54,347 nucleotides of DNA, taken from assembly GCA_902795045.1 (NCBI GenBank), contig CADBJU010000010.1, positions 1 to 54,347 of the forward strand, written 5' to 3'. The notes beneath the pieces are model-generated. The model ran no database searches. It saw only the letters and a program-made list of their open reading frames with translations, and was not told where the DNA came from. Position numbers and translations under genes: made by a program. The stretch comes from Oscillospiraceae bacterium (GTDB lineage: Bacteria > Bacillota > Clostridia > Oscillospirales > Oscillospiraceae). Of the stretch, positions 1 through 42,873 are shown piece after piece (position 1 is the first letter of the stretch; every line of letters begins with the position of its first letter).

Positions 1-126
1 GCCCTTCTGGACGCTCGGTTTGTTATACCCTTTTTTCGCTATTCACCAATTCACATCCAATCCCACTTTGGGGCTTGACTTTTAATAGTTAGTCTTTCAT
101 AAAGAGGCTCCGCGGTACGCGGTGCG

Positions 127-17416: not shown

Positions 17417-18211
17417 TTACTTTGTCAGCAGCGCCTCGTCGGAGTCGATGCTCGCGCCCTTCTGGGCAAAGAGATCGATGAGCTGCTGCTTGGTGAGCTT
17501 CTTCTTCTCCTCGCCCTCGATGTCGAGGATGATGTGGCCCTCGTTCATCATGATGAGGCGGTTGCCGTGGCGGATGGCGTCCTTCATGTTGTGGGTGATC
17601 ATGAGCGTGGTGAGCTTGTGATCCTGCACGATCTGGTCCGAGAGCTCCAGGACCTTCGCGGCGGTGCCGGGGTCGAGGGCCGCGGTGTGCTCATCGAGCA
17701 GCAGGAGCTTGGGCTCGCGCAGCACCGCCATCAAAAGCGTGACCGCCTGGCGCTGGCCGCCGGAGAGCAGGCCGACCTTGGAAGTCAAACGGTCCTCAAG
17801 GCCGAGGCCGAGGATCTTCAGGCGCTCGTGGTACTCCTCGCGCTCGGCGTTCGTGACGCCCCACTTGAGCCCGCGCTTCTGACCGCGGCGGGCGGCCAGT
17901 GCCAGGTTTTCCTCGAGCTGCATGTTGGGCGCGGTGCCCATCATGGGGTCCTGGAATACGCGGCCGATGAGGTGGGCGCGCTTATGCTCCGGCAGGGCGG
18001 TGATGTCCTGGCCGTCGAGAAGGATGCGCCCCTCGTCCACGGGCCAGACGCCCGCCACCGCGTTGAGCATGGTGGACTTGCCCGCGCCGTTGCCGCCGAT
18101 GACGGTGACAAAGTCGCCGGGCTTTAAGTGCAGGCTCAGGCCGTTGAGGGCCTTTTTTTCGTTGATGGTGCCGGGATTAAAGGTTTTGGAAATGTTCTGC
18201 AGATCAAGCAT
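17417..18211 (-). CDS. ABC transporter ATPase (TrpZ-like)
   Basis: A 264-residue ABC ATPase: Walker A GGNGAGKST near 40, Q-loop FQDPMMGTAPNM, signature LLSGGQRQAV, Walker B LLLLDEHTAALD and switch His in MITHNM. I start at ATG 18211, in the usual MLDLQNISKTFNPG context; the frame upstream overlaps the permease. It overlaps the permease gene by 8 bp. With a PF04392-like binding protein and a LIV/ribose-type permease this is the TrpXYZ-type importer known for aromatic amino acids in Firmicutes. Confidence 0.9.
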   Translation of the reverse strand: MLDLQNISKTFNPGTINEKKALNGLSLHLKPGDFVTVIGGNGAGKSTMLNAVAGVWPVDEGRILLDGQDITALPEHKRAHLIGRVFQDPMMGTAPNMQLEENLALAARRGQKRGLKWGVTNAEREEYHERLKILGLGLEDRLTSKVGLLSGGQRQAVTLLMAVLREPKLLLLDEHTAALDPGTAAKVLELSDQIVQDHKLTTLMITHNMKDAIRHGNRLIMMNEGHIILDIEGEEKKKLTKQQLIDLFAQKGASIDSDEALLTK

Positions 18212-19160
18212 CGCTTCCGGCCCCCTTCCTCCTGAGCTTGGCAAAGGAGCTCTTCTTCTGGCCGCGCAGGTAGGGCACCGCGAGGAACAGCGCAACAACG
18301 ATGGCGGTAAAGAGCTTGAGATCGTTGGAGTTGAGCTTGAGCCAGAGGACGATGACGATGACGAGATAGTACACGATGCCGCCCACGACCGTAAAGCTCA
18401 GCGTGCCGTAGAAGTTGAGGTGCTTGCCGAGGATCGCGCCGCCCACCACCTCGCCGATGATGACGGCGGCAAGGCCGATAACGATGGCGCCGCGGCCCAT
18501 GTTGATATCCGCAAAGCCCTGGTACTGGGCAAGCAGGCCGCCGGAGAGGGCGACGATGCCGTTGGAGAGCGACAGGCCCAGCACCTTCATGTTGTCGATG
18601 TTGATGCCGAGGGCGCGGCTCATGGCGGGATTATTGCCGGTGGCGCGGATGGCGGAGCCCTGCTCGGTGCCGAAGTACCAGTACATCACGGAAACCAGCG
18701 CGAGGGCGATGATGATGCCCGTCAGGATCGCGGCGGGGATGTTGCGCGAGGAGAGCAGCAGATGGTATTTATCCACGCTGACGGCCTTGTTGGCCGCCAT
18801 GCCCATAATATGCAGATTGATGGAGTAGAGGGAAAACTGGGTCAGGATACCGGCGAGGATCGCGGGGATGCCGAGCTTCGTGTGCAGTACGCCGGTCACG
18901 AAACCCGCGAGCAGTCCCGCCAGCATGGCCATCAGCAGCGCCGCCCATGCGGGCCAGCCCGCGAGGATCAGCATGACGGTCACGGCGCCGCCCGTGGTGA
19001 ACGAGCCGTCCACCGTCAGGTCCGCCACATCCAGCAGGCGGAAGGTGATGTAGATGCCCAGGGCCATGATGCCCCAGATGATGCCCTGGGACACGCCGCC
19101 GGGCATGTTGCGGAAAAGCTTCAGGACGTTCAGAGAAGCGAAGTAGCTTGTTAAAGTCAC
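18204..19160 (-). CDS. ABC transporter permease (TrpY-like)
   Basis: A 318-residue integral membrane protein of the BPD_transp_2 family with about nine hydrophobic segments (for example LLMAMLAGLLAGFVTGVL and AIVIGLAAVIIGEVVGGAIL). The start is probably GTG 19160, six bases after GAGGTG; a GTG nine bases earlier (19169) is possible. It carries substrate across the membrane with the ATPase downstream. The middle gene of a three-gene operon; ends in a basic tail (LRRKGAG). Confidence 0.85.
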   Translation of the reverse strand: MTLTSYFASLNVLKLFRNMPGGVSQGIIWGIMALGIYITFRLLDVADLTVDGSFTTGGAVTVMLILAGWPAWAALLMAMLAGLLAGFVTGVLHTKLGIPAILAGILTQFSLYSINLHIMGMAANKAVSVDKYHLLLSSRNIPAAILTGIIIALALVSVMYWYFGTEQGSAIRATGNNPAMSRALGINIDNMKVLGLSLSNGIVALSGGLLAQYQGFADINMGRGAIVIGLAAVIIGEVVGGAILGKHLNFYGTLSFTVVGGIVYYLVIVIVLWLKLNSNDLKLFTAIVVALFLAVPYLRGQKKSSFAKLRRKGAGSDA

Positions 19161-19179
19161 AGAATACACCTCAGTTGAT

Positions 19180-20248: not shown

Positions 20249-20279
20249 AAAAAAACCGCTCAGACAGCAGTCTGTGCGG
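20249..20279 (-). terminator. Attenuator terminator (3:4 helix)
   Basis: On the minus strand CCGCACAGAC (20279-20270), loop TGCT, GTCTGAGCGG (20265-20256), then seven T. A strong intrinsic terminator 69 nt before the binding-protein start codon and downstream of the Tyr-rich leader, so transcription must pass it to express the transporter. Confidence 0.88.
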
Positions 20280-20353
20280 CGCGTTGTCGGTTATCGAAGC
20301 CTGACCAAACGTTTTCTTGCAGCACAAACCGCTATTACCGAAAGCGATAATAG
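20256..20353 (-). promoter_or_regulatory. Tyrosine ribosome-mediated attenuator
   Basis: Three mutually exclusive helices can be drawn on the minus-strand RNA. 1:2 is CTATTATCG (20353-20345, over Tyr codons 15-16) with CGGTAATAG (20340-20332), nine pairs with one wobble. 2:3 is 14 continuous pairs, three of them wobble, between 20335-20322 and 20277-20264. 3:4 is the terminator. A ribosome stalled on Tyr codons would melt 1:2, free arm 2 to form the antiterminator and allow transporter expression; a ribosome at the stop codon would cover arm 2 and permit termination. This is trp-operon logic with tyrosine. Confidence 0.8.
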
Positions 20354-20394
20354 GAATAATAGCTGTATGCGTATGCAATGCGGCGTCCGGTCAT
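20335..20394 (-). CDS. Tyrosine-rich leader peptide
   Basis: A 19-residue frame, MTGRRIAYAYSYYSYYRFR, ending in TAA-TAG. Six of residues 8-16 are tyrosine (two TAC, four TAT) and one Phe follows. AGGAG lies eight bases before the ATG. It starts about 24 nt after the predicted transcription start and ends at the arm-2 sequence of the attenuator. Its role is to let the translating ribosome sense charged tRNA-Tyr; the peptide itself probably has no function. Confidence 0.82.
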   Translation of the reverse strand: MTGRRIAYAYSYYSYYRFR

Positions 20395-20423
20395 GACAGC
20401 GTCTCCTCTCTGGTGATGGCTGT

Positions 20424-20452
20424 ACTTTAGCACTTTTTGGCGCTAAAGTCAA
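20424..20452 (-). promoter_or_regulatory. Promoter of the transporter operon with overlapping inverted repeat
   Basis: On the minus strand TTGACT (20452-20447), 17-bp spacer, TAAAGT (20429-20424). A perfect 8-bp inverted repeat, ACTTTAGC/GCTAAAGT (20424-20431, 20442-20449), covers the -10 box and most of the -35 box and may be a repressor site. Confidence 0.6.
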
Positions 20453-35689: not shown

Positions 35690-37984
35690 TCACAGCTTGT
35701 TCCTCATGATCTTGCCGCTGATGGTCTTGGGGAGCTCCTTCTTGAACTCGACGATGCGCGGGTACTTGTAAGGCGCGGTGTGCTGCTTGACGTAGTTCTG
35801 GATCTCCTTCTTGAGCTCGTCGCTGCCCTCCTTGCCGGGGACAAGCACGATGCTGGCCTTGACGACCTGACCGCGGATCTCGTCCGGGGCAGCGGAGACG
35901 CCGCACTCGAGCACATACGGCAGCTCCATGATGACGTTTTCGATCTCGAAGGGCCCGATGCGGTAGCCGGAGGACTTGATGACATCGTCCACGCGGCCGA
36001 CGTACCAGATGAAGCCGTCCTCATCGCGCCAGGCCTCGTCGCCAGTGTGGTAGTAGCCGTCGTGCCAGACTTCCTTTGTCTTCTCCGGGGCCTGGTAGTA
36101 GCCGAGGAAGAGACCGCATTTGCGCTTGCCGTTTTCGTCGGCTTTAATGACGATCTCGCCGCTGATGCCGTCCTCGACAGGGTTGCCGTCGCGGTCGAGG
36201 ATGTCGATGCCGTAGCCGGGGACGGGCTTGCCCATGGAGCCGGGCTTGATATTGCTGCCGGGGAGATTGGCGATGCCGAGGGTCATCTCGGTCTGGCCGA
36301 AGCCCTCCGCGAGCTTGAGGCCCGTGAGCTTCTCGAATTGATAGAAGACTTCGGGGTTGAGCGCCTCACCCGCCGTGGTGGCGTGGCGGATGGAAGAGAG
36401 ATCGTACTTGGAAATGTCGCTCTTGATAAGCATACGATACATAGTGGGCGGCGCGCAGAAGGTGGTAATGTTGTACTTGGCGAACATGGGCAGGATCTTC
36501 TCGGCGTCGAAGCGGTCAAAGTCATAGGTGAAGACCGCGCCCTCGCACAGCCACTGGCCGTAGAGCTTGCCCCAGAGCGCCTTGCCCCAGCCGGTTTCTG
36601 ATATAGTGAAATGCAGGCCGTCCCGCTCCACCATGTGCCAGTAGCGGGCAGTGACATAGTGGCCGAGGGCGTATTTGTAGCTGTGCAGCGCCATCTTCGG
36701 GTAGCCCGTGGTGCCGGAGGTGAAGAACATGAGCATGGGGTCGTCCCCGCAGGGGGAGGTCTCCGTGCGGCGGTAGCGGCGGGAGAAGAGGCCGTATTCG
36801 CCGTCGAAGTCGTGCCAGCCCTCGCGCTTGCCATTGACCATGATCTTGGTGACGCTCATGCCCGCTGCCTGCTCGCCCAGTTCCACCTGGTGGGCAACAT
36901 CCCCGTCGCCGGTGCAGACGATGGCAGACACGCCCGCCGCCTTAAAGCGGTACTCAAAGTCGTGGCTGAGAAGCTGGTTGGTAGCCGGAATGGCGATCGC
37001 GCCCAGCTTGTGCAGGCCGAGGATCGCAAACCAGAACTGGTAGTGACGCTTGAGCACCAGCATGACGCGGTCGCCGCGCTTGATGCCGAGGGAGGTAAAG
37101 TAGTTTGCCGCCTGGGAGGAGGCGTCCTTGATGTCCTTGAAGGTGAAGCGCCGCTCGGTCATGTCGTTGGCAATGTGGAGCATGGCGAGCTTCTCGGGCG
37201 TCTTGCGGGCAATCTCGTCGACGATATCGAAGGCGAAGTTGAAGCTGTCCTCGTTCTTGAAGCGCAAGTCCTTGAGCACGCCGTTTGCGTCCTCCTCGGC
37301 CTCGATGAACTTCTCGCACAGCAGCGGCTCCCGCTCGGGCTTGACGGCAGGCTTTGCTTCTTCCTCCTCCGCCTGCATGAGGCCGGGCTTCTGGACCGTC
37401 TCGTCCGCCGCCATGATCATGGCGAGGAACGTGCAGTCCTTGCCGTCAATGGCGATCATGCCGTGGGGCGTGGAGCTGTCGTAGTAGATGCTGTCGCCCT
37501 CGTGCAGGATCTCCTCATGCTCGCCGATGCGCACACGCAGGGTGCCGGAGATGATGAGGTCGAATTCCTGACCCGCGTGGGTGGTAGTGTGAATGGGCTC
37601 GTTCTGGAGCTCGGTGGAGTACTGGTAGGTGACCCAGTAGGGCGTCGCCATCTTTTTGCGGAACAGCGCCGCCATGTTCTGGATGACGATGCCGTCCTCC
37701 ACGGCGGTGACAAGGCCCTGATCCCGGCGGTTCACCGCGTAGGAGGTCAGTCTTGCGCTGCGGCCTTCCAGAAGCTGAATGGGCTCGACGCCCATGGCCA
37801 TGGCGGCCTTGTGCAGGAAGGTAAAGGGCAGGTCCACCCGGCCGGACTCGTACTCGATGTACTGCGCCTCGGTGATGCCGGTGCGGGCCGCCATCTCCTC
37901 GGTGGAAAAGCCCACGATGTCGCGCAGCTCCCGGATACGAAGCGCGATCTGCAGAAGCTGATTGTCTGCGGTCTGTACGTTCAT
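35690..37984 (-). CDS. HTH-cupin-acyl-CoA ligase fusion
   Basis: A 764-residue three-module protein. Residues about 10-72 form an XRE-type helix-turn-helix (IRELRDIVGFSTEEMAARTG); 110-195 a cupin (HTTTHAGQEFDLIISG, EGDSIYYDSSTPHG); 245-764 an adenylate-forming acyl-CoA synthetase with MLMFFTSGTTGYPKMALHS, GFGQTEMTLG, YHTGDEAWRDEDG and the catalytic Lys near PKTISGKIMR. HTH-cupin proteins are normally small regulators, so this joins a likely sensor/DNA-binding unit to a ligase resembling medium/branched-chain types. First gene after the Ile T-box; probably activates a branched short-chain acid for the oxidoreductase. A repeat lies between leader and start codon. Confidence 0.9.
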   Translation of the reverse strand: MNVQTADNQLLQIALRIRELRDIVGFSTEEMAARTGITEAQYIEYESGRVDLPFTFLHKAAMAMGVEPIQLLEGRSARLTSYAVNRRDQGLVTAVEDGIVIQNMAALFRKKMATPYWVTYQYSTELQNEPIHTTTHAGQEFDLIISGTLRVRIGEHEEILHEGDSIYYDSSTPHGMIAIDGKDCTFLAMIMAADETVQKPGLMQAEEEEAKPAVKPEREPLLCEKFIEAEEDANGVLKDLRFKNEDSFNFAFDIVDEIARKTPEKLAMLHIANDMTERRFTFKDIKDASSQAANYFTSLGIKRGDRVMLVLKRHYQFWFAILGLHKLGAIAIPATNQLLSHDFEYRFKAAGVSAIVCTGDGDVAHQVELGEQAAGMSVTKIMVNGKREGWHDFDGEYGLFSRRYRRTETSPCGDDPMLMFFTSGTTGYPKMALHSYKYALGHYVTARYWHMVERDGLHFTISETGWGKALWGKLYGQWLCEGAVFTYDFDRFDAEKILPMFAKYNITTFCAPPTMYRMLIKSDISKYDLSSIRHATTAGEALNPEVFYQFEKLTGLKLAEGFGQTEMTLGIANLPGSNIKPGSMGKPVPGYGIDILDRDGNPVEDGISGEIVIKADENGKRKCGLFLGYYQAPEKTKEVWHDGYYHTGDEAWRDEDGFIWYVGRVDDVIKSSGYRIGPFEIENVIMELPYVLECGVSAAPDEIRGQVVKASIVLVPGKEGSDELKKEIQNYVKQHTAPYKYPRIVEFKKELPKTISGKIMRNKL

Positions 37985-38174: not shown

Positions 38175-38441
38175 GAAAAAAGCTCGCCCCCAAGAATACT
38201 TGAGGCGAGCTGTTAATCCCGCGGTACCACTCAAATTGCAGCTTATGCTGCCGCTTCAGGCCCCAACAGGCCCTATCCCTTAACGCGGGCGGAACGGGAA
38301 ACGCTTACTCAGCGATGCCTTTCAGGTCTCCGGCTCGGAAGTGATGGGCCCTTGAAGCTGGCGTTTCCGACTCGCACCGTCCGTCGGCTCTCTGAACACG
38401 CTTCCCTTCGGCCGTCTTCGTCACAGCCTTTGTGAATGTTG
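38175..38441 (-). ncRNA. T-box leader, isoleucine-type specifier (ATC)
   Basis: On the minus strand the leader has CAGAGAGCCG in stem I, the T-box core GAGTGGTACCGCG (near 38220-38232), and a terminator, AGCTCGCCTCAAG pairing with CTTGGGGGCGAGCT (38211-38181), then six T. Aligning stem I with the leader at 42608, the position before ACTTCCGAGCC reads ATC (Ile) where the other reads CTC. Uncharged tRNA-Ile would therefore turn on the ligase-VOR-aminotransferase operon. Specifier assignment is by eye. Confidence 0.85.
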
Positions 38442-38654: not shown

Positions 38655-41174
38655 TCAGGGCGCCGTTTTTCCGGAAGATGCCGAAGGCGAATTGTGCTGC
38701 ATTGCCTCAAGCGCTTTTGCCGCGTCCTCTCTCATTTTATATTTCAGGATCTTGCCTGCCGCGTTCATGGGGAAGCTGTCGGTAAAGGTGATGTAGCGCG
38801 GGACCTTGTGGCGGGCCATATGGTCGGTGATGTATTTGCGCATCTCCTCCTCGGTCATGGTCTCGCCCTCCTTGAGGATGATGGCGGCGTAGGCCTCCTC
38901 GCCGTACTTCTTGTCCGGCACGCCGATGACCTGCACGTCCTGCACCTTGGGATGGGTGTAGATGAACTCCTCGATCTCCTTGGGGTAGATGTTCTCACCG
39001 CCGCGGATGATCATGTCCTTGAGACGGCCCGTGATGCGGTAGTTGCCGTTTTCATCCCGCACCGCCAGGTCCCCGGAGTGGAGCCATCCCTCGCTGTCTA
39101 TCGTCTCCGCGGTAGCCTTGGGCATCTTGTAATAGCCCTTCATGGTATTATACCCGCGCGAGCAGAATTCACCCGTCTCGTTGTCGCCGAGCTCCCGCCC
39201 GGTCTCGGGGTCGATGATCTTGCACTCCACGTGCGGGAAGGCGTAGCCCACGGTGTCGGTGCGCACGTCGAGGGAGTCTGTCCAGGCGGACATGGTGCTG
39301 CCGGGGGCGGACTCGGTCTGGCCATAGACGGAGACGATGCCGATCATATGCATCTCATCCGGCTGGGCGGCGCGGCGCATGAGCTCCGGCGGGCAGCCGG
39401 CACCCGCCATGATGCCGGTGCGCATGTGCGAAAAGTCCGTCTTCCGGTAATCCGGGTGGTTGAACATGGCGATGAACATCGTCGGCACGCCGTTGAAGCA
39501 GGTGATCTTCTCCTGGCGGATGCAGGCGAGCGAGCTCTTTGCCGAGAAGTAAGGCATCGGGCAGACGGTGGCGCCGTGGGTCAGGGAGGAGGTCATGGAC
39601 AGGACCATGCCGAAGCAGTGGAACATGGGCACCTGGATCATCATGCGGTCCGCGGTCGACAGACCCATGCGGTCGCCGATGCACTTGCCGTTGTTGATGA
39701 CGTTATAGTGGGTGAGCATGACGCCCTTCGGAAAGCCCGTGGTGCCGGAGGTGTACTGCATGTTGCACACGTCGTCGGGCTTGACCTGGGCGGCCATGGC
39801 GTTGACCGTCTCCTGCGGCACCATGTCCGAGCGCGCCATGGCCTCCTCGAAGGTGAGGCTGCCCTCCTGCCGGAAATCGACGGTGATGACGTTTCTCAGA
39901 AACGGCAGCTTGCGGCAGTGCAGGGGCTTGTCCTTGTCGTGGCCCTTGAGTTCGGGGCAGAGCTCGTTGATGATGGCGCGGTAGTCGGAGTCAAGGCACG
40001 ACTCGATCATCACGAGGGTGTGGGTATCGGACTGGCGCAGGAGGTATTCGGCCTCGTGGCTTTTGTAGGCGGTGTTCACCGTCACCAGTACCGCGCCGAG
40101 CTTGACGGTGGCCCAGAAAGTGATATACCAGGCCGGGACGTTCGTCGCCCAGACGGCGACCTTGCTGCCGGGCCGCACGCCGAGATAGACCAGGGCACGG
40201 GCAAAGCGATCCACATCCTCACGGAACTCTTCATAAGTGCGGGTGTAGTCGAGGGTCGTGTACTTGAAGGCGTACTGATCGGGGAACTCCTCCACCATGC
40301 GGTCGAGCACCTGGGAGAAGGTCAGATCCAGCAGCTCGTCCTTCTTCCAGACGTATTCGCCGGTGCCGTCATGGTTGGGGTAGAGGCGCTTTTTCTTGCC
40401 GCGGGTGTTCTCAAAACGGCCCATGTAGTTGACGAAATGGGGGAAGATGATGTCGGGGTCGTCCAGATCCTCGATCCACTCCGGCTTCCACACGAGGGAG
40501 ATATAGCCGTCGTAGTCGATGGAGCCGAGGGCGCGGATCATCTCATCGACCGGCAGATTGCCCTCGCCGATGATGGTATAGCCGCCCGCCTCGTCCGAGT
40601 CGCGGATATGCACATGGCGTACGTAGGCGCCGAGATTTTTGATGGTGGTGTCGGCATCCTCGCCGCAGTCGTGGCAGGGGTGGTGGATATCCCACAGCGC
40701 CGCCAGGCTGTCGCTGGCAAAGTCGTCCATCAGGGCGCGGAGTCTGCCCGTGTCGGAATAGATGCCGGTGGTCTTGATGAGCAGCGTGACCTCCGCCTTC
40801 TCGGCCGCGGGCAGAAGCTCTTTTACGCGCTCGCGCACGAGGTCCTCCCTGTCCTCCAGGGCGACCACGGAGACGTATGGCGTGCGGATGCTGCCCGCCG
40901 TCTCCAGCAGCCACTTCACGTCCCTGAGGGTCGTTTCCGGTAGTGAAAGATCAATGGAGCTGTCAAGGCACGGGATCGCCATGCCCTTTTCGCGCAGCTG
41001 CCTTACCGTGGTGGCGGCGCGGTAGCGGTCGAAGGGGCAGCCGCGGTCGATGAGATCCTCGCGTTTGAAGAGATCGTAAAGCTCGATGCCGTTCATGCCG
41101 CTCTCTTCAGCAGAAAGGAGCAGCTCGTCCCAGCTCATATGCTGCCAGCCGCGGGTGGAAAAGGAAAGCTTCAT
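38655..41174 (-). CDS. TIM-barrel/acyl-CoA ligase fusion
   Basis: An 839-residue two-module protein. Residues 1-255 are a sugar-isomerase-like barrel (LSFSTRGWQHMSWDELLLSA; WDIHHPCHDCG; YVRHVHIRDSD). Two usual metal-ligand Glu positions look replaced: Lys134 in TLLIKTTGIYSD and Val228 in ISLVWKPEW. Residues about 285-825 are an acyl-CoA synthetase with MQYTSGTTGFPKGVMLTH, SVYGQTESAPG, LHSGDLAVRDENG and the catalytic Lys in NAAGKILKYK. Its start overlaps the LeuA-like stop by 4 bp, so the two are coupled under a Leu-type T-box. It may activate a branched acid such as isovalerate, but the barrel's role is unknown. Confidence 0.88.
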   Translation of the reverse strand: MKLSFSTRGWQHMSWDELLLSAEESGMNGIELYDLFKREDLIDRGCPFDRYRAATTVRQLREKGMAIPCLDSSIDLSLPETTLRDVKWLLETAGSIRTPYVSVVALEDREDLVRERVKELLPAAEKAEVTLLIKTTGIYSDTGRLRALMDDFASDSLAALWDIHHPCHDCGEDADTTIKNLGAYVRHVHIRDSDEAGGYTIIGEGNLPVDEMIRALGSIDYDGYISLVWKPEWIEDLDDPDIIFPHFVNYMGRFENTRGKKKRLYPNHDGTGEYVWKKDELLDLTFSQVLDRMVEEFPDQYAFKYTTLDYTRTYEEFREDVDRFARALVYLGVRPGSKVAVWATNVPAWYITFWATVKLGAVLVTVNTAYKSHEAEYLLRQSDTHTLVMIESCLDSDYRAIINELCPELKGHDKDKPLHCRKLPFLRNVITVDFRQEGSLTFEEAMARSDMVPQETVNAMAAQVKPDDVCNMQYTSGTTGFPKGVMLTHYNVINNGKCIGDRMGLSTADRMMIQVPMFHCFGMVLSMTSSLTHGATVCPMPYFSAKSSLACIRQEKITCFNGVPTMFIAMFNHPDYRKTDFSHMRTGIMAGAGCPPELMRRAAQPDEMHMIGIVSVYGQTESAPGSTMSAWTDSLDVRTDTVGYAFPHVECKIIDPETGRELGDNETGEFCSRGYNTMKGYYKMPKATAETIDSEGWLHSGDLAVRDENGNYRITGRLKDMIIRGGENIYPKEIEEFIYTHPKVQDVQVIGVPDKKYGEEAYAAIILKEGETMTEEEMRKYITDHMARHKVPRYITFTDSFPMNAAGKILKYKMREDAAKALEAMQHNSPSASSGKTAP

Positions 41175-42586
41175 GCCTCACCCTCCTCATATGCGATCTT
41201 GTTGAGCGCGTTCACGTAAGCCTGAATACTGGAAAACACGATGTCAGTGGAAATGCCGCGCCCGGAATAGAGCTTGCCGTTGGACACCAGGCGCACCACC
41301 GTCTCGCCCATGGCCTCGCGGCCCTCGGTGACGGCGCGGATCTGGAAATCGTCCAGCTCGTAGTGGCGGTTGACCACCTTCTCGAGCGCGAGGAAGGAGG
41401 CGTCGATGGGGCCGTCCCCCAGGGCCACGCCCTCGAGCATCTCGCCTTCGCGGCTTAATTTGATATGGGCCATGGCGGAGATGTTGCTGCCGCTGTTGAT
41501 GACATAGCTCTCCACCGTGTAGCTCTGCGGCACCTGGAGGGCGACCGAGGCGATGATGGCGTCGAGTTCCCGCGCTCCCACCTGCTCCTTGTGGCGCAGC
41601 AGGTCCTGTACAGCCTCCCACACGGCCTGGGTGTCCTCGGGGTTTAAGTCATAGCCCAGATCGCGCGCGGCCTGGGCAACGCTGGCTGCGTCGTCGCCGA
41701 GGGCCAGGGACAGCTCGCGCGCCGCGTCCTGCACCCCGTCGTCAAAGGGCGAGGTCTTGTTGCGCTTGGTCTCCACCATCCACACGATCTGCCGCACGAT
41801 GCGCTTGAGCTCCACCGTGTGCAGGGGACATGTGACGCCGAAAAGCTCTTCTCTCGCCGCCAGGATGCCCGCCACGTTCTGGAGGGAGGCGGTGTCGCCC
41901 ACGGCGGCGGTCTTGACCTCACGCGCGCCCGCTCTCACGGCGGCAACGGCGCAGGCGTCCGCCATGGCCATAGTGTTGGCGCAGGCCACGCCCAGGGTCA
42001 CGTCCGAGAGGGCCGGGACGGTGTCGAGCAGGTTTTTCAGAAAGTCCGCCAGCTCCTCCGGCAGCAGGGCGCCGGTGGCGTCGCAGACGGTGACGGTCTT
42101 TGCGCCCGCCGCGACGGCGGTCTCGATGGCCTTGTGCAGGAAGGCTGCGTCGCTGCGCGTGGCGTCCTCGGCGAGAAACTCCACATCTTCGGTCTTCTCC
42201 GCGCAGGCCTTCACGATCTCTTCGATACAGGCAAGCATGGCGTCCGGCTTTTTGCGGGACAGGTACTCCATCTGCACGGTGCTGACCGGGGCCGTGACCT
42301 GGAGCCGCGGGTGCTTTGCGCCCTTGATGGCTTCCCAGGTCTCATTGACACTGTCGGTATTCAGCTCCACGGGCACGGCCACGACGCTGCCCTTCACCGC
42401 CGAGGCGATGGATTTGACGCGCAGGGCGTCGGCCCGGCCCGTGCGGATGCCTTCGATCTCGATGACCGAGACCGCCAACTTGTCCAGGAGCTTGGAGATT
42501 TCAAGCTTGCCCTTGAAGCTCAGGCTGTGGTCGGCCCCCTTGGCAAGCTGTTTCATCGTAATGTCGCTGATGCGGATTTTCTCCAT
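41171..42586 (-). CDS. LeuA-like protein with degenerate catalytic site
   Basis: A 471-residue HMGL-like TIM barrel with a C-terminal LeuA regulatory (dimer) domain from about 363 (GDGPIDASFLALEKVV, GRGISTDIVFSSIQAYVNALN). Key 2-isopropylmalate-synthase residues are absent: the N-terminal DTTLRDGEQ reads DITMKQLAK (catalytic Arg and metal Asp lost), and the metal-binding H-x-H reads GVACANT (Ala201, Ala203). EDVEFLAEDATR and the late Asn remain. Start at ATG 42586. Preceded by an apparent leucine T-box. It is either a pseudoenzyme, perhaps a leucine-sensing partner, or a divergent family with another reaction. Many tools would call it 2-isopropylmalate or citramalate synthase. Confidence 0.85.
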   Translation of the reverse strand: MEKIRISDITMKQLAKGADHSLSFKGKLEISKLLDKLAVSVIEIEGIRTGRADALRVKSIASAVKGSVVAVPVELNTDSVNETWEAIKGAKHPRLQVTAPVSTVQMEYLSRKKPDAMLACIEEIVKACAEKTEDVEFLAEDATRSDAAFLHKAIETAVAAGAKTVTVCDATGALLPEELADFLKNLLDTVPALSDVTLGVACANTMAMADACAVAAVRAGAREVKTAAVGDTASLQNVAGILAAREELFGVTCPLHTVELKRIVRQIVWMVETKRNKTSPFDDGVQDAARELSLALGDDAASVAQAARDLGYDLNPEDTQAVWEAVQDLLRHKEQVGARELDAIIASVALQVPQSYTVESYVINSGSNISAMAHIKLSREGEMLEGVALGDGPIDASFLALEKVVNRHYELDDFQIRAVTEGREAMGETVVRLVSNGKLYSGRGISTDIVFSSIQAYVNALNKIAYEEGEA

Positions 42587-42607
42587 TCTGCGCACTTCCT
42601 TTGCACG

Positions 42608-42873
42608 AAAAAATAAAGCCCTCTGAAGTCCATACGACCTCAGGGGCGAAGTTTCACTCGCGGTACCACCCTGGTTCTCCGCCGGCTGTCGGCGGACTCT
42701 CTCGGGCTCCAATAAGCCCATGGCCTGTAACGGGGCCTCCCGTGATCCGCTACTGTGTGTTCACGAATCCCGCTCGGGAACGAGACGCTTTCCGACTCAC
42801 GCACCGGCTCACACCGCCCGCCGGTTCTCTGTGCCGCTCATACGGAAGCGATTTTCCTTCATCGCTGTTTACA
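42608..42873 (-). ncRNA. T-box leader, leucine-type specifier (CTC)
   Basis: Minus-strand leader with CACAGAGAACCGG in stem I, the T-box core AGGGTGGTACCGCG (42660-42673) and a terminator (42647-42618: GCCCCTGAGGTC, loop GTATG, GACTTCAGAGGGC) followed by a T-rich run. The inferred specifier before GTTCCCGAGCGGG reads CTC (Leu). It ends about 20 nt before the LeuA-like start codon. Confidence 0.87.

Follow-up and report, generated by a model that had tools for sequence, protein, structure and literature searches.

A predicted tyrosine-codon attenuator ahead of a putative tyrosine ABC importer in an Oscillospiraceae bacterium, and related elements at other aromatic amino acid genes

Leader, helices and transporter genes at the locus

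The stretch of DNA analysed here, referred to as the window, comprises 54,347 nucleotides of an Oscillospiraceae bacterium genome (contig CADBJU010000010.1). On its minus strand, a sigma-70-type promoter is predicted at 20452..20424 (TTGACT, a 17-nt spacer and TAAAGT, with TG ahead of the -10), followed by an AGGAG Shine-Dalgarno sequence at 20407..20403, which was scored from the sequence, and by a leader peptide gene at 20335..20394, recognized from the sequence and its orthologs. The leader, MTGRRIAYAYSYYSYYRFR, runs for 19 codons from the ATG at 20394 to the TAA stop at 20337..20335, and six of these codons specify Tyr (residues 8, 10, 12, 13, 15 and 16). The first-pass annotation had proposed such a 19-codon leader with a good ribosome binding site and six Tyr codons among residues 8-16, and the sequence bears this out. 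A promoter-like pair of the form TTGA[CA]N-16..18-TANNNT was present within 90 nt upstream of the leader start in 63 of the 67 leaders tested. On the same strand lie three genes assigned by family search, encoding the substrate-binding protein P0001 (19230..20180, PF04392), an ABC permease (18204..19169, PF02653) and an ABC ATPase (17417..18211, PF00005; the start given is a chosen internal ATG).

The RNA of the leader region can form three helices, located by folding and helix comparison. Region 1 (20345..20353), which spans Tyr codons 15 and 16, makes nine pairs with region 2 (20353..20345 with 20340..20332, -6.9 kcal/mol). Region 2 (20319..20340) is the partner of region 1 or, from 20335 on, of region 3 (20264..20280), the antiterminator partner. 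The resulting 2:3 helix (20335..20322 with 20277..20264) consists of 14 contiguous pairs starting at the last base of the leader stop codon, gains two G-C pairs past a bulge, and reaches -24.7 as a closed hairpin. The 5' part of region 3 also forms the 5' arm of the predicted intrinsic terminator hairpin 3:4 (20279..20256; 4+5 pairs flanking an A/A mismatch, -13.5), which is followed by a tract of seven T at 20255..20249. Every structural element of the trp/his-type set proposed in the first-pass annotation is thus present where it had been placed, including the 14-pair antiterminator, here extended by two pairs, and the classic terminator with its seven T.

Alternative folds were calculated, recovering all three helices together with a second register for 1:2. 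Folded freely, the entire leader has its energy minimum at -58.2, with region 2 paired to Tyr codons 11-13 and not to codons 14-17. The nine pairs proposed over the last Tyr codons and stop therefore exist, but are not the register that the free fold prefers, and two registers of 1:2 are possible, both over Tyr codons. With a ribosome placed on Tyr codon 15 or on codon 16, the exposed RNA in its full length folded as the terminator, and 2:3 won only while region 4 was still unmade. Since the terminator beats 2:3 at equilibrium with the ribosome on these codons, the order of folding must decide between them.

Conservation among relatives and support for pairing

Searches for the binding protein covered 250 genomes of the family, of which 129 gave a match at 1e-30, and 101 genomes of the genus, of which 75 gave a match. 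Upstream regions of 73 genus loci and 83 other family loci were then read, a set that omits one paralog and contig ends (L002, L046 and L056). A leader with a Shine-Dalgarno sequence and at least four Tyr in 12 codons was found in 51/73 genus regions, compared with none on the antisense strand and 0.0 in ten rounds of dinucleotide shuffles, and in 7/83 of the other family regions (antisense 1; shuffle mean 0.0). Under a rule of at least five Tyr plus Phe, leaders were found in 59/73 genus regions (antisense 1; shuffles 0.5) and 16/83 others (antisense 1; shuffles 0.3). At the thresholds used, Trp, His and Leu runs were absent from all 73 genus regions; across all 156 regions there were no Trp or His runs and one Leu run. 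The Tyr-rich leader is not a product of chance. Orthologous loci lacking the Tyr run and terminator had been named beforehand as evidence against the attenuator; the run is kept in most genus regions, and the Tyr rule fails in 22/73 of them and in 76/83 of the others, with no leader seen upstream of the transporter at L066, L069, L090, L091, L093 and L094. Among 60 transporter leaders, eight contain more Phe than Tyr. More distant transporter loci were also considered as carriers of the leader; 54 were scanned, from several families including Oscillospiraceae, and L210 was the sole convincing case.

Many leaders of transporter loci beyond the genus have a different segment in common, [FYL]-A-G after a basic stretch, together with a longer GC-rich terminator (L010, L011, L031, L118, L120, L131, L137, L138, L143, L155 and L159). 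This segment may be a stalling motif, or region 2 translated into peptide.

Pairing was assessed in an alignment (A1) of 60 of 61 loci that had been picked for showing a leader; the remaining locus, L096, was lost for want of a terminator match. Six rows were later dropped, and a further alignment, A2, took 46 of the 54 that remained. The 2:3 positions were paired in 88.9% of cells, against 25-50% when the arms were slid, and cells with changes on both sides numbered 45, compared with 21 in shuffles. For 3:4 the corresponding values were 84.7% against 28-49%, and 40 cells against 14. For both helices, shuffles equalled or surpassed the observed numbers of pairs with changes on both sides and of additional pair types, and the window's two outermost 2:3 pairs were formed in 26/59 and 25/60 sequences only. 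The orthologous alignment suggested in the first-pass annotation yields compensatory cells for 2:3 and 3:4, but no excess at the level of whole pairs. Because the 1:2 helix overlaps codons, it was compared with synonymous-codon variants, folding the whole 49-base segment and not the 1:2 helix alone. The segment was more stable than its variants in 54 of 56 transporter leaders (mean z -1.64; rows L033, L036, L041 and L095 were dropped because they lacked the core pattern), the two that did not beat them being L059 (z +0.17) and the leader in the window itself (z +0.11). In a wider set, one member of which is a transporter's leader, the segment was more stable than its synonymous variants in 74/75 leaders. 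The helix and leader counts are not independent, because the sequences are related.

Related elements and T-boxes at aromatic genes

A covariance model of regions 2-4 (R1), trained on the transporter leaders and containing neither leader codons nor gene, finds a second copy of the element in the source genome at C17:26029-26105 (E 6e-10). This copy has the leader MKNVFFFAYYYLFTGVRG and heads a nine-gene aroF cluster for the synthesis of Phe and Tyr. The cluster matches DAHP synthase, prephenate dehydrogenase, aroB, aroA, aroC, prephenate dehydratase with a chorismate mutase part, shikimate dehydrogenase/kinase, aroQ and an aminotransferase, the matches for prephenate dehydrogenase, the dehydrogenase/kinase and the aminotransferase falling below curated cutoffs. 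At E 0.01, R1 gives matches in 73/250 family genomes and 72/101 genus genomes. A model built without any element of the ABC transporter (R2) recovers the window element at 7.2e-16, with matches in 76/250 family genomes at 1e-4 and in 14/295 genomes of the order, eight of them in six other families. A third model (R3) finds the window element at 8.3e-11 and matches 68/250 family genomes at 1e-3. R2 and R3 were built from sequences picked through R1, so their agreement with the window does not count as independent; the independent evidence comes from the genes and leaders next to the matches, none of which R1 contains.

A subset of the matches listed, amounting to 93 element loci, was chosen and then read. 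The next gene was recognized at 75 of these: aroF at 56, a TrpB-like gene at 9, an SSF symporter at 4, aroB at 3, and pheA, a paaK-like gene and a transporter of the window's type at one each. Representative next genes were checked against Pfam or NCBIfam, the paaK-like one scoring below cutoff (546 vs 646). The other 18 loci had no recognized next gene, and 10 of them had no leader ORF by the rule used; two gene-less loci, L288 (at a contig end) and L357, have aromatic leaders. Searches with Rfam families at cutoff returned none at the window element and none at 19 element loci. Pairing support for 2:3 and 3:4 recurs in chosen sets of these wider-family elements (alignment A3 took 33 of the 44 element loci read up to that point, and A4 took 22 chosen ones); in one such test two measures were not clearly above shuffles and the outer pairs were weak.

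Most of the gene-less matches are weak, with the exceptions of L305 (3.6e-7, R1), L326 (2.5e-8, R2) and L363 (2.1e-8, R3). These three adjoin neither an aromatic leader nor an aromatic gene and are perhaps unrelated terminators.

The aromatic codons of the leaders differ with the gene that follows. Tyr and Phe are about equally frequent in aroF leaders (49% Tyr in 35 leaders), while the pheA leader has five Phe and one Tyr and the paaK-like leader seven Phe and one Tyr (one locus each). Trp codons occur in 9/9 TrpB-like leaders, one to three in each alongside three to five Phe, vs 5/56 aroF leaders. Among the SSF symporters, the leader at L302 has five Tyr, one Phe and no Trp, and those at L359, L360 and L361, from another genus, have two Trp, two Tyr and three Phe each. 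The last aromatic codon starts 7-18 nt before region 2 in 69/75 leaders of the wider set, a spacing that suits a stalled ribosome leaving most of region 2 free. Judged from the sequences, the predicted sensing codons fit the gene served.

The difference between L302 and L359-L361 could mark a substrate switch readable from the leader. At L280 (G061:C15), a Phe-rich leader lies upstream of a gene resembling phenylacetate-CoA ligase; rumen bacteria make phenylalanine from phenylacetate, which would fit such a leader.

The first-pass annotation had described a lineage that mostly uses T-boxes, and T-boxes are indeed found. The source genome has eight T-box matches (RF00230, E<=0.001), none of them at the window attenuator (20.2-20.5 kb) or at the aroF-cluster copy (C17:26 kb). 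Six of the eight fall below the Rfam cutoff of 93, at 75.7-89.5 bits, and one of these six, at C30, is doubtful, having no visible T-box core. One T-box lies 60 bases upstream of a distant paralog of the binding protein (L002, 31% identity), and another precedes a TrpB-like gene that shares 83% identity with one preceded by a Trp-codon leader in another genome. Rfam searches at the gathering threshold found no T-box at 100 + 20 loci, missing the sub-cutoff one before L002; because six of the eight genome matches lie below cutoff, such negatives are weak, and this threshold was dropped as proof of T-box absence. At E<=0.1, no T-box was found at 20 leaderless family loci. A scan of 25 genomes gave 241 matches; among the matches listed, no close ortholog had a T-box immediately ahead of it, and five T-boxes stood immediately before paralogs (28-35% identity) that belong to five other genomes.

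The specifiers of three T-boxes were read by eye. The one governing the paralog at C2:159329-160592 (L002, L323) appears TGG-like. In the window, a T-box at 42639-42871 on the minus strand (106 bits) precedes gene 41171-42600, which by inspection resembles an isopropylmalate/homocitrate-synthase-type enzyme, and its specifier looks CTC (Leu)-like. The window's second T-box, at 38198-38433 on the minus strand (76.8 bits, sub-cutoff), precedes gene 35690-37984, acyl-CoA-synthetase-like with a helix-turn-helix start by inspection, and its specifier looks ATC (Ile)-like.

The elements share a scaffold core, UUUGUG.UGC ... GC.GCAC.G, and carry Tyr, Phe, Phe and Tyr, or Trp with Phe as sensing codons, the exchange occurring even within the SSF symporter family. 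We lean, with some reserve, towards a portable family, in which a homologous antiterminator/terminator scaffold would have spread between aromatic genes in Oscillospiraceae and neighbouring families with its codons exchanged, and would be interchangeable with T-boxes. The conservation of sequence across genes may reflect an added contact, for example with a protein or an RNA polymerase pause.

Transporter substrate, proposed mechanism and known systems

The best solved relative of P0001 is CD0873 from Clostridioides difficile (PDB 6hni, E 2.8e-45). CD0873 binds tyrosine, with Glu-263 contacting the Tyr hydroxyl and Tyr-279 excluding tryptophan, and the tryptophan binder SP1069 has Ala and Gln at these positions (PMC6816091). 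E244 and Y260 of P0001 align with Glu-263 and Tyr-279, and the Gln of SP1069 position Gln-284 is absent, P0001 having Tyr260 there. Tyrosine had been put forward as a testable ligand from the leader codons, and this protein comparison points the same way; the transporter is very probably a tyrosine importer. One could instead suppose that Tyr is what the leader senses but that the cargo of the transporter is a different aromatic compound, be it phenylalanine, tryptophan or an aromatic acid, a reading compatible with the main explanation of the switch. The family is annotated as TrpX-like and some orthologs have Phe-rich leaders, yet the closest solved relative binds tyrosine, both discriminating residues match, and P0001 scores 219.8 bits against the curated TrpX cutoff of 390 (NF041285); we regard such other cargo as unlikely. 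The Glu/Tyr pair is present in 154/159 loci, whether the leader is rich in Tyr, rich in Phe or absent (the 159 are drawn from two collections and include repeats), the exceptions being L002 (Ala/Tyr), L247 (Asp/Tyr) and three that are cut or unaligned. The pocket does not follow the leader, since the four Phe-rich-leader species checked (L240-L243) keep Glu/Tyr, as do orthologs without a leader, and the pocket residues were accordingly ruled out as a tracker of leader codons.

The elements, their conservation, the support for pairing and the fit of codon to gene are established at the level of sequence; use of the promoter, ribosome stalling, tRNA charging as the signal, termination and transport of tyrosine are inferred. 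With a probability of roughly 0.86, the element is a ribosome-mediated attenuator that senses tRNA-Tyr charging, controls a tyrosine ABC importer and belongs to a homologous family at aromatic genes. In this mechanism, transcription would begin just upstream of the leader. With ample Tyr-tRNA, the ribosome would run through the Tyr codons to the stop codon and cover region 2, leaving 3:4 free to form and to end transcription at the T tract. With Tyr-tRNA short, it would stall at the Tyr codons over region 1 and block 1:2; 2:3 would then form before region 4 is made, deny region 3 to the terminator and allow the importer genes to be transcribed. An untranslated leader would form 1:2 and 3:4, giving basal termination. 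Relatives would reuse the 2:3/3:4 scaffold with Phe and Tyr codons before aroF, mostly Phe before pheA and the paaK-like gene, and Trp with Phe before TrpB-like genes.

The same hairpins could also read a stall of another origin. In a nascent-peptide arrest, the leader peptide itself (F-A-x-A-Y plus the aromatic run) would halt the ribosome on free tyrosine or another ligand, much as TnaC stalls ribosomes in answer to tryptophan. The motif F-A-A/V/F-A-Y before the Tyr run recurs in many genus leaders, beyond what codon counting needs; against this, leader sequence and length vary, the aromatic residues differ by gene as codon reading predicts, and a stall on excess ligand would raise importer expression amid plenty, which is an odd sign. 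We judge arrest of this kind improbable. Still less credit goes to a constitutive leader and terminator, in which the ORF would set a fixed read-through or respond to translation stress in general, without being specific for any amino acid. That reading draws on the failure of the window's leader in the synonymous-codon comparison, and is opposed by the Trp codons that separate TrpB-like from aroF leaders and by the lack of any Trp, His or Leu run in the 73 genus regions.

Leader-peptide attenuation controlled by tRNA-Tyr charging would join several known systems. Among enterobacterial attenuators, trpL and pheL sense Trp or Phe (PMC11802643). They resemble the window in their sensing codons, mutually exclusive 1:2, 2:3 and 3:4 helices, T-tract terminator and link to amino acid genes, and differ in reading Phe or Trp, whereas the window has Tyr on a scaffold common to different genes and sensing codons. 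We know of no RNA scaffold common to the enterobacterial attenuators. In Corynebacterium glutamicum, the same source describes aroR, a Phe-Tyr-Phe leader before the aroF DAHP synthase operon that acts by ribosome stalling and on which Tyr availability is reported to be without effect (Neshat 2014, via PMC11802643), a point that weighs against a Tyr response here. The aroF members of the present family likewise have leaders with Phe and Tyr codons before DAHP synthase; aroR differs in being actinobacterial and, in that source, in having no transporter member described. The uORFC-13-1 motif of Acholeplasma, with 24 sequences, is described as a Phe-codon short ORF and terminator before aroF (PMC8632094); it is confined there to one genus plus environmental sequences and to one gene. 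Within the Firmicutes, His leader peptides precede hisZ/hisS* in bacilli, where regular attenuation replaces a T-box (PMC2965389). They too are Firmicutes attenuators, and differ in sensing histidine, in serving aminoacyl-tRNA synthetase paralogs and in occurring in bacilli.

For other aromatic genes, a T-box riboswitch is reported to control the TrpX-type transporter at trpX of Streptococcus suis (PMC9382623), and the B. cereus group is reported to regulate the making of tyrosine through T-boxes (PMC2494555). In Actinobacteria, attenuators of the leader-peptide kind are reported to be absent upstream of the operons for Phe and Tyr (PMC1262725). A T-box likewise senses tRNA charging, and differs in reading the tRNA directly with no leader ORF. 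It is itself one scaffold with exchanged specifier codons. Leader-peptide attenuation itself is known; classical attenuators are not known to us to use one scaffold in common while the sensing codons are swapped. Among the entries listed in the mostly non-subscription literature searched, none described this family under Tyr leaders, attenuators of Oscillospiraceae, Ruminococcaceae or Clostridia, or leaders of Firmicutes DAHP synthase.

For the transporter, a clade named after tryptophan or not named at all gains a concrete and testable ligand, tyrosine. A Firmicutes lineage very probably runs its aromatic amino acid genes through translation-coupled attenuation beside T-boxes, and in uncultured bacteria of rumen and gut the leader codons offer a way to read the substrate. 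Should the scaffold prove portable, it would show an attenuator being reused with new sensing codons, a matter on which isolated, unrelated attenuators can give no answer.
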